The position numbers were made by a program, and so were the translations under genes. Of a stretch of 64,000 bases of DNA, positions 29,820-32,867 are shown one piece after another (the first letter of the stretch is position 1; each line of letters starts with the position of its first letter). The notes under the pieces were generated by a model. The model was not told the DNA's origin. It worked only from the letters and a program-made list of their open reading frames with translations, and ran no database searches. The stretch covers positions 124,001 through 188,000 of the forward strand of contig NZ_JAKWJQ010000003.1 in assembly GCF_022761015.1 (NCBI RefSeq), read 5' to 3'. This DNA comes from Humibacter sp. RRB41. Its GTDB lineage: Bacteria > Actinomycetota > Actinomycetes > Actinomycetales > Microbacteriaceae.

Positions 29820-29911
29820 GAAAGCCGTCGTGGCGGCCAGGTGAACCACCGCTGAACCCGGCCGGTCGTTCGTGCGTCCGTTCTGGTGCCGCCACCGGCC
29901 AGGCATCCGCC

Positions 29912-29917
29912 TATCCT
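29912..29917 (+). promoter_or_regulatory. -10 element, leaderless type
   Basis: TATCCT ends 7 nt before ATG 29925. Confidence 0.5.
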
Positions 29918-29924
29918 GAGGGGC

Positions 29925-31043
29925 ATGAGCGTATTGCCCCTGCGGGATTTCTATTGCGTCATCCCTGCCGGCGGGGTGGGGTCCAGACTCTGGCCTCTCT
30001 CCCGAGCGGATGCGCCGAAGTTTCTGCACGACCTCACCGGATCGGGTTCGACCCTGCTACGGGCCACCTGGAATCGCCTCTCGCCGCTGGCAGGGCCTCA
30101 GCGCGTCATGGTCGTCACGGGGCGTGCGCATCGCGCGGCAGTGGAGAGTCAGATCCCTGCTCTCGCCGACGCGAACGTCGTGCTCGAGAGCGAGCCGCGC
30201 GACTCGACGGCCGCCATCGGCCTCGCCGCCGCCATCCTCGAGCGTCGTGAACCGGGCGTGATCATCGGCTCGTTCGCCGCGGATCACGTGATCGGCAGCG
30301 AGCCGCTGTTCCGCGCGGCCGTCATCGAGGCGGTTTCTGCAGCGCGCGCCGGTTACATCACCACGATCGGCATCCAGCCGACCGAGCCCGCCGTCGGCTT
30401 CGGGTACATCCACGTCGGCGAGCAGCTCGACATCGAGAGCGCGCGATCGGCCAAGCGCGTGACGTCGTTCGTCGAGAAGCCCGACCTGGAGACCGCGACC
30501 GGGTATCTGTCGAGCGGCGACTACCTTTGGAACGCCAGCATGTTCATCGCGAAGGCGTCCGTGCTGCTCGAAGCGATCGGCAAGTCGGAGCCGAAGCTGC
30601 TGGCCGGTCTGCTCGAACTGGCCGAGGCATGGGATGACCCGGCGGCCAGGGGGCCGGCGGTCGACCGCATCTGGCCCACGCTCAAGAAGGTGGCGATCGA
30701 CTACTCGGTCGCCGAGCCCGCCGCCGCCGCCGGAAAACTCGCCGTCGTGCCCGGACATTTCGCGTGGGACGACGTGGGCGACTTCGCATCGCTGGCCAAG
30801 CTGAACAGCGGAGGGCGGGCATCCGATCTGGCCATTCTCGGCGAGAACGCCAGAGTGCTGTCGGATGCCTCCAGCGGCATCGTGGTCAGCCAGACCAATC
30901 GCGTGATCAGCCTGATCGGCATTCAGAACGTGGTCATCGTCGACACGCCCGATGCCCTGCTCGTCACGACCAGCGAGAACGCCCAGCGGGTCAAGGCCGT
31001 CGTCGAAGCGCTGCGGCTCACAGGCTCGACCGAGGTGCTCTAG
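29925..31043 (+). CDS. manC: Mannose-1-phosphate guanylyltransferase
   Basis: A 372-residue nucleotidyltransferase that makes GDP-mannose from mannose-1-phosphate and GTP. The pyrophosphorylase signature is PAGGVGSRLWPLSRADAPK near residue 10; SFAADHVIG, FVEKPDLETA, YLWNASMF and HFAWDDVGDF follow. It lacks the C-terminal isomerase domain of bifunctional enzymes. An upstream in-frame ATG is rejected because TATCCT sits right before 29925. The divergent glycosyltransferase is a likely user of the product. Confidence 0.92.
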   Translation: MSVLPLRDFYCVIPAGGVGSRLWPLSRADAPKFLHDLTGSGSTLLRATWNRLSPLAGPQRVMVVTGRAHRAAVESQIPALADANVVLESEPRDSTAAIGLAAAILERREPGVIIGSFAADHVIGSEPLFRAAVIEAVSAARAGYITTIGIQPTEPAVGFGYIHVGEQLDIESARSAKRVTSFVEKPDLETATGYLSSGDYLWNASMFIAKASVLLEAIGKSEPKLLAGLLELAEAWDDPAARGPAVDRIWPTLKKVAIDYSVAEPAAAAGKLAVVPGHFAWDDVGDFASLAKLNSGGRASDLAILGENARVLSDASSGIVVSQTNRVISLIGIQNVVIVDTPDALLVTTSENAQRVKAVVEALRLTGSTEVL

Positions 31044-31107: not shown

Positions 31108-31992
31108 TCACCGGCCCGACGGAGGTGAGACGACGTTCTGCACGCCCAACTCCTCCAGGCGCTTCGGATCGGCGAGCACCTCGAGTCCCACGATCCGGTC
31201 GCCGTCGATGTCGAAGGCCATGATCGAGACGACGTGGCCGCTCATCACGGCCGCGACGCCGGGCAGGCCGTCGATGAGGATCGGCGTCGAGTGCGCGGCG
31301 AGGCGGCCTGACAGCACCGCCTGCTCGGCGATGGATCGGGCACCCTCGACCAACTGCATCGTGGTGCCGTAGTCGGCCCGAAGCACCGCGCCGTCGTCGA
31401 GCAGGTTCAGAAGTGCGGCGATGTTCCCGTCTCGAGCCGCGGCGAGCCAGGCGTCGACGATGCGTCGGCCGCGTTCACGAGTCGGTCGCGCGGGCTCCTC
31501 GGCACCGCGTAGCCTCCGGCGCGCACGTGAGGCGAGCTGCCGCGCGGACTCCGGTGAACGCTCGAGCACCGCAGCGATCTCGTTGAACGAGCGCCCGAAG
31601 ACGTCGTGCAGGACGAATGCGATCCGCTCTGCTGGACTGAGAGTCTCCAGAAGCACCAGGAGCGCAACGCTCACCTGATCGCTCTCGGCCGTGAGCTCTG
31701 CCGGGTCCGCCGCGACAGCGACAGGTTCGTCCCGCCACTCTTCGACCTGCCAGGAGTGCTCGCGGGTGCGTCGCGGCGAGCGCAGCACGTCAAGGCTTAC
31801 GCGGGAGACGACGGTGGTCAGCCATGCCTCCAGGTTGTCGATGCCATCGACGTCCGCGCGCTCCAGGCGCAGCCAGGTCTCCTGCACGGCGTCGTCCGCA
31901 TCTGCTGACCCGCCAAGCAGCCGAGCGGCGATGGCTCGGAGCCGCGGCCGCTCGGTCTCGAACCGCCGCGCAAGAATCCTTCGGTCTGTCAT
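31108..31992 (-). CDS. ECF41-type RNA polymerase sigma factor (SigJ-like)
   Basis: A 294-residue ECF sigma factor. Sigma region 2 lies in about 1-85 (DADDAVQETWLRLER), region 4 in about 105-165 (LSPAERIAFVLHDVFGRSF, SPESARQLASRARRRL). A SnoaL-like extension of about 120 residues follows (VDAWLAAARDGNIAAL, VLRADYG, LADPKRLEEL), which marks ECF41. In that group the extension, not an anti-sigma factor, controls activity; a degenerate W-R-D-E-P linker motif is visible. The start is ATG 31992. Its own upstream region carries an exact ECF41 promoter on this strand, so it is probably autoregulated. Confidence 0.92.
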   Translation of the reverse strand: MTDRRILARRFETERPRLRAIAARLLGGSADADDAVQETWLRLERADVDGIDNLEAWLTTVVSRVSLDVLRSPRRTREHSWQVEEWRDEPVAVAADPAELTAESDQVSVALLVLLETLSPAERIAFVLHDVFGRSFNEIAAVLERSPESARQLASRARRRLRGAEEPARPTRERGRRIVDAWLAAARDGNIAALLNLLDDGAVLRADYGTTMQLVEGARSIAEQAVLSGRLAAHSTPILIDGLPGVAAVMSGHVVSIMAFDIDGDRIVGLEVLADPKRLEELGVQNVVSPPSGR

Positions 31993-32018
31993 GTCACATC
32001 TCCTCGGTGTCGATCGTC
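31992..32018 (+). promoter_or_regulatory. ECF41 promoter for the epimerase gene
   Basis: TGTCACA (31992-31998), 16 bases, CGTC (32015-32018): an exact match to the known ECF41 consensus TGTCACA-N16-CGTC. Its first base is shared with the sigma-factor start codon. It reads toward the gene at 32070. Confidence 0.85.
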
Positions 32019-32026
32019 GGTGTGTC

Positions 32027-32053
32027 GACGAGGGAACGACCTCGGTTGTGACA
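32027..32053 (-). promoter_or_regulatory. ECF41 promoter for the sigma-factor gene
   Basis: On the minus strand TGTCACA (32053-32047), 16 bases, CGTC (32030-32027): a second exact ECF41 consensus, reading toward the sigma gene and interlocked face to face with the epimerase promoter. Confidence 0.85.
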
Positions 32054-32069
32054 CGAAAGGACGACGACC

Positions 32070-32867
32070 ATGAACGCACCTCTGCTCGTGACGGGCGGAA
32101 CGGGAACCATCGGCAGCCACGTGGTGCCGAAGCTCCGCCAAGCAGGACGCGAAGTGAGGATCCTCTCCAGACATCCTCGTGCGAGCGAACCCGGGATACA
32201 GCATGTCGAAGGTGACGTCGTTGCGGGGAGTGGACTCGCGGAGGCGCTCGACGGAGTCGATGTCGTCCTGCATCTCGCCGGCGGCGCCAAGGGTGACGAT
32301 GTCGCGGCCGGGAACCTCGCGAGGGCGGCGAAGAGTGCCGGCGTGCGGCACCTCATCCTCATCTCTGTGATCGGTGCCGATCGGATGCCCATCGGCTACT
32401 TCCGTGCCAAAGCGCTGGCAGAGAAGGCGATCGCGGAGTCGGGCGTGCCGTGGACGGTGCTGCGAGCCGCGCAGCTGCACGAGTTCGTGCTCCCGGTCGT
32501 GCGCGGAATGGCGAAACTCCCGCTGCTTCCGGTACCCGGGGGCCTGCGTTTCGAGCCGGTACACGTCGACGAGGTCGCCGATCGGCTGACGGAGATTGCC
32601 TTCGATGCTCCGGCGGGGAGGGTCGCCGACATCGCCGGACCGGAAGTGCTCGACATTCGGCAACTCACGGATGCCTACGTGCAGACGACAGGCGGTCGCC
32701 GCCGCCCCAGCCTGCCGATTCGCCTTCCCGGCGGGATCGGCCGCGCGTACCGTTCCGGCGAGAACCTCGCTTCAGGCGGTGCTCAGCGAGGGGAGCGCAC
32801 CTGGCGCGAGTTCGTCGGCGAGCTGATGGCGGCAGCTCATGACGAGAGTCCGTCTTCGCTCATCTGA
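32070..32867 (+). CDS. NAD(P)-binding epimerase/NmrA-like protein, ECF41 partner
   Basis: A 265-residue atypical short-chain dehydrogenase. The dinucleotide loop is LLVTGGTGTIGSHVV (about 5-19); a YFRAKALAEKAI segment takes the place of the catalytic YxxxK, and VPWTVLRAAQLHEF follows. ECF41 sigma factors are typically linked to carboxymuconolactone decarboxylases, oxidoreductases or epimerases; this is the epimerase case. The physiological substrate is unknown. AAGGACGACG precedes ATG 32070, and the leader is about 45 nt from the predicted ECF41 start site. Confidence 0.88.
   Translation: MNAPLLVTGGTGTIGSHVVPKLRQAGREVRILSRHPRASEPGIQHVEGDVVAGSGLAEALDGVDVVLHLAGGAKGDDVAAGNLARAAKSAGVRHLILISVIGADRMPIGYFRAKALAEKAIAESGVPWTVLRAAQLHEFVLPVVRGMAKLPLLPVPGGLRFEPVHVDEVADRLTEIAFDAPAGRVADIAGPEVLDIRQLTDAYVQTTGGRRRPSLPIRLPGGIGRAYRSGENLASGGAQRGERTWREFVGELMAAAHDESPSSLI

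Follow-up and report, generated by a model that had tools for sequence, protein, structure and literature searches.

Does a pair of interlocked promoters, facing each other between a sigma factor gene and its neighbor, amount to two promoters or to one? Here, we address this question for a 62-bp palindrome in a 64,000-nucleotide stretch of DNA from Humibacter sp. RRB41 (hereafter the window). An earlier note on this DNA had read positions 31992-32053 as TGTCACA-N16-CGTC-N8-GACG-N16-TGTGACA, and direct reading of the window sequence confirms this string letter for letter. The palindrome sits between a minus-strand gene for an ECF41-like sigma factor and a plus-strand gene for an NmrA-like SDR protein, and the features of the region are as follows.

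31108..31992, minus strand: ECF41-like (SigJ-type) sigma factor, 294 aa, with a C-terminal extension of ~120-130 aa (Pfam, models and alignment)
31992..31998, plus strand: -35 element TGTCACA of the SDR-side promoter, an exact match to the ECF41 consensus of PMC3426412
32000..32005, minus strand: Shine-Dalgarno sequence GAGGAG of the sigma gene, within the spacer of the SDR-side promoter (sequence)
32015..32018, plus strand: -10 element CGTC of the SDR-side promoter, after a 16-bp spacer (sequence)
32018, minus strand: predicted start of the sigma transcript, a G, the 9th base after CGTC (by analogy with the S. meliloti start)
32019..32026, no strand: central N8, GGTGTGTC; elsewhere its length is mostly 8 and sometimes 9, and its interior sequence is not conserved
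32027, plus strand: predicted start of the SDR transcript, a G, the 9th base after CGTC (by analogy with the S. meliloti start)
32027..32030, minus strand: -10 element of the sigma promoter, CGTC on the minus strand and GACG on the plus strand (sequence)
32047..32053, minus strand: -35 element of the sigma promoter, TGTCACA on the minus strand, with a 16-bp spacer (sequence)
32055..32061, plus strand: Shine-Dalgarno-like GAAAGGA of the SDR gene (sequence)
32070..32867, plus strand: NmrA-like / NAD(P)H-binding SDR protein, 265 aa, the 'epimerase' type of COE partner (Pfam)

The left half of the palindrome is a rightward promoter directed at the SDR gene, and the right half a leftward promoter directed at the sigma gene, so each transcript would cross the opposite -35 element. 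The two facing ECF41-consensus promoters of the earlier note, one per gene, are thus both exact and oppositely oriented, and the interlock it described follows, as geometry, from the order of the elements. With both -35s and both -10s packed into 62 bp, the promoters of the two strands would, at the level of sequence, clash at the polymerase binding site. A -10 element common to both directions is absent from the window; the two -10s stand 8 bp apart. The sigma ATG begins at 31992 on the minus strand and its A pairs with the first T of the rightward -35, which bears out the further claim that a -35 and the sigma start codon share a base. Between the sigma Shine-Dalgarno sequence and the sigma start codon lies a start-stop AUG-UGA (31992-32000, minus strand), made by the opposing -35 (A-TGTGACA). 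The A of this start-stop is found at the same place in 91/113 oriented loci of the scan described below (L053-L170), and the matching T on the partner side in 75/113, so the start-stop may be a mere by-product of an extended TGTCACAT consensus. As for the neighborhood, 29886-31043 (plus strand), convergent with the sigma gene and 64 bp off, is by its translation what we take to be a mannose-1-phosphate guanylyltransferase-like gene, and from 32957 onward (plus strand) the translations are presumably those of a BMP-type lipoprotein and ABC transporter genes.

Could such a palindrome arise by chance or from base composition? The window contains two TGTCACA-N14..18-CGTC sites, which are the two halves and nothing else; shuffles of the window lead one to expect 0.34, and 6 of 100 reach two. 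Base composition predicts 1.8e-9 occurrences of the full 22-base architecture per 64 kb, and no facing pair appears in reversed or shuffled sequences of the 205 sigma loci introduced below. We therefore reject a chance or compositional artefact. Genome-wide, five exact TGTCACA-N15..17-CGTC sites are present, two of them being the palindrome halves, against four for the reversed-pattern control, numbers that would fit a sigma factor with few targets. When genomes of the phylum were searched with a -35 core of TGTCAC, 16-bp spacers and a center of 0-30 bp, only 2 of 396 contained a facing pair, that of the window and one with an 11-bp center. Overlap as a general trait of facing ECF promoters can also be set aside, on the strength of the sole other consensus tried: the generic facing pattern GGAAC-N15..17-CGTC occurs at 36 places in 34/296 genomes, with gaps spread over 0-29 and none at 8.

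What kind of sigma factor adjoins the palindrome? The sigma-2 and sigma-4 regions are present (Pfam PF04542 and PF08281), the sigma-4 match ends at residue 161, and the protein carries a C-terminal extension of the sort (~100 aa) that is characteristic of ECF41. Its nearest models are SigJ and SigX4, to which most of the protein aligns at scores below the curated cut-offs, and it also aligns with ECF41 proteins; SigJ is its best solved relative by sequence. No SnoaL Pfam domain was matched in the window sigma at E 0.001. At the aligned positions, in place of WLPEP, DGGG and NPDKL, the window sigma reads SWQVEEWRDEP, RADYG and ADPKRL. We take the DGGG-type and NPDKL labels to denote hallmarks of the ECF41 extension; both motifs are visible in the canonical rows of our alignment (S. 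meliloti, Paracoccus, Labrenzia, Cytobacillus and others), which carry WLPEP/DGGG/NPDKL, some with a one-letter variant. WLPEP is the linker motif of ECF41 named in PMC3426412. In lacking WLPEP, DGGG and NPDKL, the window sigma is unlike canonical ECF41 proteins. The other aligned N8 sigmas likewise lack all three, as do 100 of the 102 scan-locus sigmas among the matches listed. Hence, the ECF41 assignment of the earlier note stands as regards promoter consensus (TGTCACA-N16-CGTC before a COE-type gene), domains and extension, but not as regards the hallmark motifs, and we speak of an ECF41-like, non-canonical sigma. The genome of the window encodes five further strong SigJ/ECF41-type sigma paralogues (L006-L009 and L011).

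Is the layout kept in relatives? A match to the sigma is found in 188/199 genomes of the family. Conservation of the second promoter and of N8 in close relatives, on which the earlier note had staked its reading, is borne out by the best 6 of 30 fetched family loci besides the window (63-83% identity), all six of which keep both exact promoters and the 8-bp gap. The next relative, L028 (55%), shows only the partner-side promoter, with a 15-bp spacer, in the exact scan, and an N8 pair under relaxed cores. Altogether, the 30 fetched family loci include 7 exact facing pairs, the window's among them, and all are N8. In two genomes of the window's own genus, the facing promoters stand farther apart, by 21 bp at L326 and 20 bp at L328, which exceeds N8-N9 by roughly a helical turn.

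We also chose ECF41-type sigma loci by protein similarity, so that the motif plays no part in the choice. A set of 90 class loci came from 296 Actinomycetes genomes; the full set of 205, which covers the Actinomycetes, adds 40 class loci, 40 and 30 family loci (the window among them) and the five own-genome paralogues. With at most one mismatch per promoter, the 90 class loci comprise 14 facing pairs (13 N8, 1 N9), 2 back-to-back pairs, 23 loci with the sigma-side promoter only, 1 with the reverse promoter only and 50 with none; pairs exact in both halves number 0/90. Under relaxed cores, 57 of the 205 loci have facing pairs, namely 33 N8, 12 N9 and 12 with other gaps (12, 20, 21, 26, 30, 36 three times, 38 twice and 89 twice), and the remainder consists of 10 back-to-back pairs, 34 loci with the sigma-side promoter only, 23 with the reverse promoter only and 81 with none, it being understood that kinship among sequences inflates these and all other counts and p-values given here. 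Back-to-back divergent pairs thus occur too, also in Labrenzia and Cytobacillus.

To look more widely, genome contigs were scanned with the center left free between 0 and 30 bp and one spacer free between 15 and 17, which gave at least 118 loci, not a designed sample. Among the 118 matches listed, the center is 8 bp in 111, 9 bp in 4, 11 bp in 2 and 12 bp in 1. The N8 loci among them belong, by record title, to Actinomycetota (74), Pseudomonadota (28), Acidobacteriota (6), Myxococcota (1), Chloroflexota (1) and candidate division FCPU426 (1). The earlier note had proposed looking for the same head-to-head spacing at other ECF41 loci; the outcome is at least 111 N8 loci across six phyla, alongside the 45 N8/N9 cases among the 57 facing pairs above. 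The soil symbiont Rhizobium johnstonii 3841 (L262) is one carrier of the N8 layout. The two sets are not independent, since some scan loci come from the same organisms as genome-derived loci (L084 and L027 score alike). An ECF41-like sigma gene lies directly beside the motif in 113 of the 118 matches listed. Four of the other five adjoin a CMD gene (two with the other side at the edge of the stretch), and one has neither gene; this last locus (15-11-16) is probably a chance match.

The genes on the far side of the motif vary. Among the matches listed, the partner is a CMD gene in 60 and an SDR gene in 20; beside a sigma, 35 partners are unclassified and 2 are cut by an edge. Three of the 35 have no reading frame, and 19 frames, some of them uncertain, were scanned against Pfam. 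A family was assigned at E 0.001 to 18/19, a few of them below the curated cut-off, and to L110 none. The 18 comprise nine glyoxalase-fold and three PNPOx-like proteins and one each of NmrA, methyltransferase, ABC ATPase, MFS, YCII and DUF1059. By one partner alignment, and by their differing families, the partner proteins are mutually unrelated.

What, then, is conserved in the palindrome besides the promoter boxes? In a profile of 106 oriented scan loci, where the boxes themselves are fixed by the search pattern, the center shows preferences at the promoter edges only (A after CGTC, T before GACG), and its middle is poorly conserved. Among sigmas less than 60% identical, mean identity is 36% inside N8 and 40% inside the spacers, and the length stays 8. 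When the sigmas are clustered at 70%, 50 of 55 clusters are all-N8. The distance to the partner start has a standard deviation of 24.5 nt for CMD (38 called) and 15.9 nt for SDR (20 called), as called by a simple Shine-Dalgarno rule that is partly wrong, some values being negative. On the sigma side, 80/112 loci place the start between -1 and +3 nt relative to the opposing -35.

The two -10 elements also change together. In the 45 N8/N9 pairs, their first bases are C/C in 28, non-C/non-C in 16 (G/T 9, G/G 4, T/T 3) and C/T in 1, so that the class (C or non-C) is the same in 44/45 and the base identical in 35/45 (Fisher p 2.6e-11, relatedness ignored). A non-C -10 on the sigma side is found in 11/12 N9 pairs versus 5/33 N8 pairs (p 4.5e-6, relatedness ignored), and CGTC in 28/33 N8 pairs. 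By this co-variation, both halves look like targets of one sigma, and the autoregulation foreseen by the earlier note holds up as a prediction. Possibly the gap length follows the specificity of sigma-2, or else the distance to the start. Two of the paralogues in the window's own genome have variant facing pairs, GGTC/GGTC with N8 at L009 and TGTC/TGTC with N9 at L008; judging from these motifs, the -10s are changed alike on both sides, as if each paralogue owned an insulated two-way promoter.

It is possible that two ordinary, independent promoters simply overlap in a short intergenic space, and that N8 is ancestral and inherited, with no functional coupling. Shared ancestry does explain part of the N8 count, as follows from the distribution of the layout. 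An N8/9 pair is found beside 21/55 non-canonical versus 0/10 canonical sigmas among 65 full-length similarity-chosen loci, the window included; the N8 layout is thus not supported as a general ECF41 trait and, in our samples, appears to belong to the non-canonical ECF41-like lineage. A quick tree was built from 129 proteins, including 55 chosen through the motif; on it, 2 changes suffice for the canonical label and 21 for the N8/9 label, which is strongly clustered (shuffled mean 41.5). Among the 111 non-canonical members of this tree, 36 lack an N8/9 pair (31 with no pair, 5 with other gaps); L100 has an N8 pair beside a sigma that forms a long branch. Other observations speak against mere inheritance. 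An indel within N8 would hurt neither promoter by itself, and yet the length is still 8 in distant members, in which the inner sequence and spacers have diverged as described. Moreover, the partner-start distance varies widely, partner genes have been exchanged, and N9 goes with a non-C -10, as if the gap were tuned. On balance, we regard the independence of the two promoters as unlikely.

If the gap is tuned, what might it be tuned to? At the S. meliloti SMb20029-rpoE9 locus, transcription has been mapped to a start 9 nt downstream of the motif (PMC3616915), and the site reads CGTC-ATGGTGTC-G. The genes at this locus are arranged in tandem and its sigma is a canonical ECF41 protein; the same distance is assumed here for the non-canonical sigmas. 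Wecke et al. mapped G as the start in two organisms (PMC3426412). Of eight exact promoters outside facing pairs, taken from plasmid records of S. meliloti, S. fredii, Paracoccus, Methylobacterium, Sphingobium, Pseudosulfitobacter, Labrenzia and Ideonella, five have G at the 9th position after CGTC and the others have A, T and C, once each. A start 9 nt past CGTC, combined with an 8-bp gap, would make each predicted start coincide with the final base pair of the -10 opposite, and with starts at 32027 (plus strand) and 32018 (minus strand) the two melted regions would almost coincide.

Another explanation is that only one direction works, that the apparent opposing -10 is a conserved first transcribed GACG (+1 to +4), and that the -35 opposite it is a relic or stands there incidentally. 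Consistent with this, among the 23 class loci whose sole promoter is on the sigma side, G is the 9th base after CGTC in 91% and GACG is found there in 11, and some loci are without any recognizable opposing -35. At the same time, GACG occupies that place in 0/8 of the exact promoters outside facing pairs, and GACG as a mere start sequence is accordingly not supported. Nor is a TGTGACA placed exactly 16 bp past GACG in more than 100 loci the effect of a start sequence, and the two -10s do co-vary. We consider a single working direction quite improbable. Class loci such as L191, L192, L208 and L198 keep GACG at N8 with no recognizable opposing -35, and from their sequences they look like cases of decay or deletion of the partner-side promoter.

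Symmetry of this kind is also what one would look for in an operator. A dimeric protein, either two sigmas or a dimeric regulator, might bind the half-sites without polymerase and so form an autoregulatory switch. The dyad of four promoter boxes over 62 bp is compatible with such a role, and the sigmas carry a C-terminal extension of a kind that is regulatory in ECF41 (PMC8999054). Against this, the strongly conserved bases are known promoter elements at consensus spacing on each side, and the center conserves only the CGTCA..TGACG edges. An operator seems to us very improbable indeed.

We think it quite probable, instead, that the 62-bp palindrome is one bidirectional, self-activating promoter unit read by the adjoining ECF41-like sigma. 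Holoenzyme containing the window sigma would bind in either of two orientations, one leading to SDR mRNA and the other to the sigma's own mRNA, a positive autoregulation. The 8-bp gap would correspond to the -10-to-start distance of this type of polymerase. Both open complexes would need nearly the same melted bubble, so that the palindrome would hold only one polymerase at a time, and whichever orientation wins would set how much sigma mRNA is made relative to target mRNA. Selection on the shared bubble or on the start base would then be what fixes the gap. A stronger version holds that this is a single, indivisible promoter, with starts inside the opposite -10s, one bubble for both strands, and a gap under selection because the open complexes coincide only at 8-9 bp. 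To this version we attach a tentative degree of belief, somewhat short of even.

Mutual interference of the two promoters, which the earlier note had predicted, is plausible because both footprints overlap. In five tested bidirectional promoters of E. coli, competition is negligible at basal activity, one side is repressed when the other is strongly activated, and noise is reduced under interference (PMC12825309). At the palindrome, both directions would be raised by one and the same sigma, so that competition is expected only when sigma is abundant, and autoregulation is thus predicted to be self-limiting.

How does this unit compare with known systems? Wecke et al. in 2012 described 55 divergent loci of ECF and COE genes (PMC3426412). 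The motif precedes the sigma gene in 36 of them and the COE gene in 41, and often it is present at both. Those loci resemble the present one in the consensus TGTCACA-N16-CGTC and in a sigma adjoining a COE-type gene, here of the NmrA/epimerase type. We found no mention there of promoter overlap or of a fixed inter-promoter distance, and palindrome, symmetry and bidirectionality do not occur in the main text. Thus, the earlier note's view that the switch was undescribed for ECF41 must be narrowed: dual promoters in divergent loci were reported in 2012, but the interlocked, fixed geometry was not found in that text. Likewise, no title or opening of an abstract that we found describes the fixed facing layout, and an earlier description is possible. 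S. meliloti SMb20029-rpoE9 (PMC3616915, PMC6180224) shares the promoter consensus; unlike the palindrome, it is a tandem operon with a single promoter, a canonical-motif sigma and no facing half. The bidirectional promoters of Warman, Grainger and colleagues (PMC12825309) are also short, near-symmetrical DNA that polymerase engages in two mutually exclusive orientations. In E. coli, their divergent starts lie at preferred distances of 18, and also 10 and 23 bp. Those promoters use the housekeeping sigma and a shared -10, whereas the palindrome has two complete, separate -35/-10 sets for an alternative sigma, a gap fixed across phyla and, as one of its products, the sigma itself.

Finally, we consider what the palindrome means for this group of sigma factors. 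It is real and conserved, and it probably serves a non-canonical, ECF41-like lineage as one bidirectional unit. Bidirectional promoters are known, as are ECF loci under autoregulation; the palindrome looks like a variant of both, with a sharp, testable geometric rule. A gap that is fixed across phyla, with sequence and partners free, is direct comparative evidence of two promoters selected as one object, and the young field of bacterial bidirectional promoters gains a case with a non-housekeeping sigma, built-in feedback and testable starts. The TGTCACA-N16-CGTC-N8/9 mirror is also a compact marker: a single search with it locates both the promoter of the sigma gene itself and the target gene, and hence allows target prediction for this ECF sigma lineage. 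Should the promoter prove indivisible, sigma and target output would be coupled at every initiation event, and the palindrome would be the characteristic regulatory device of a large ECF41-like lineage, kept while its target genes change.
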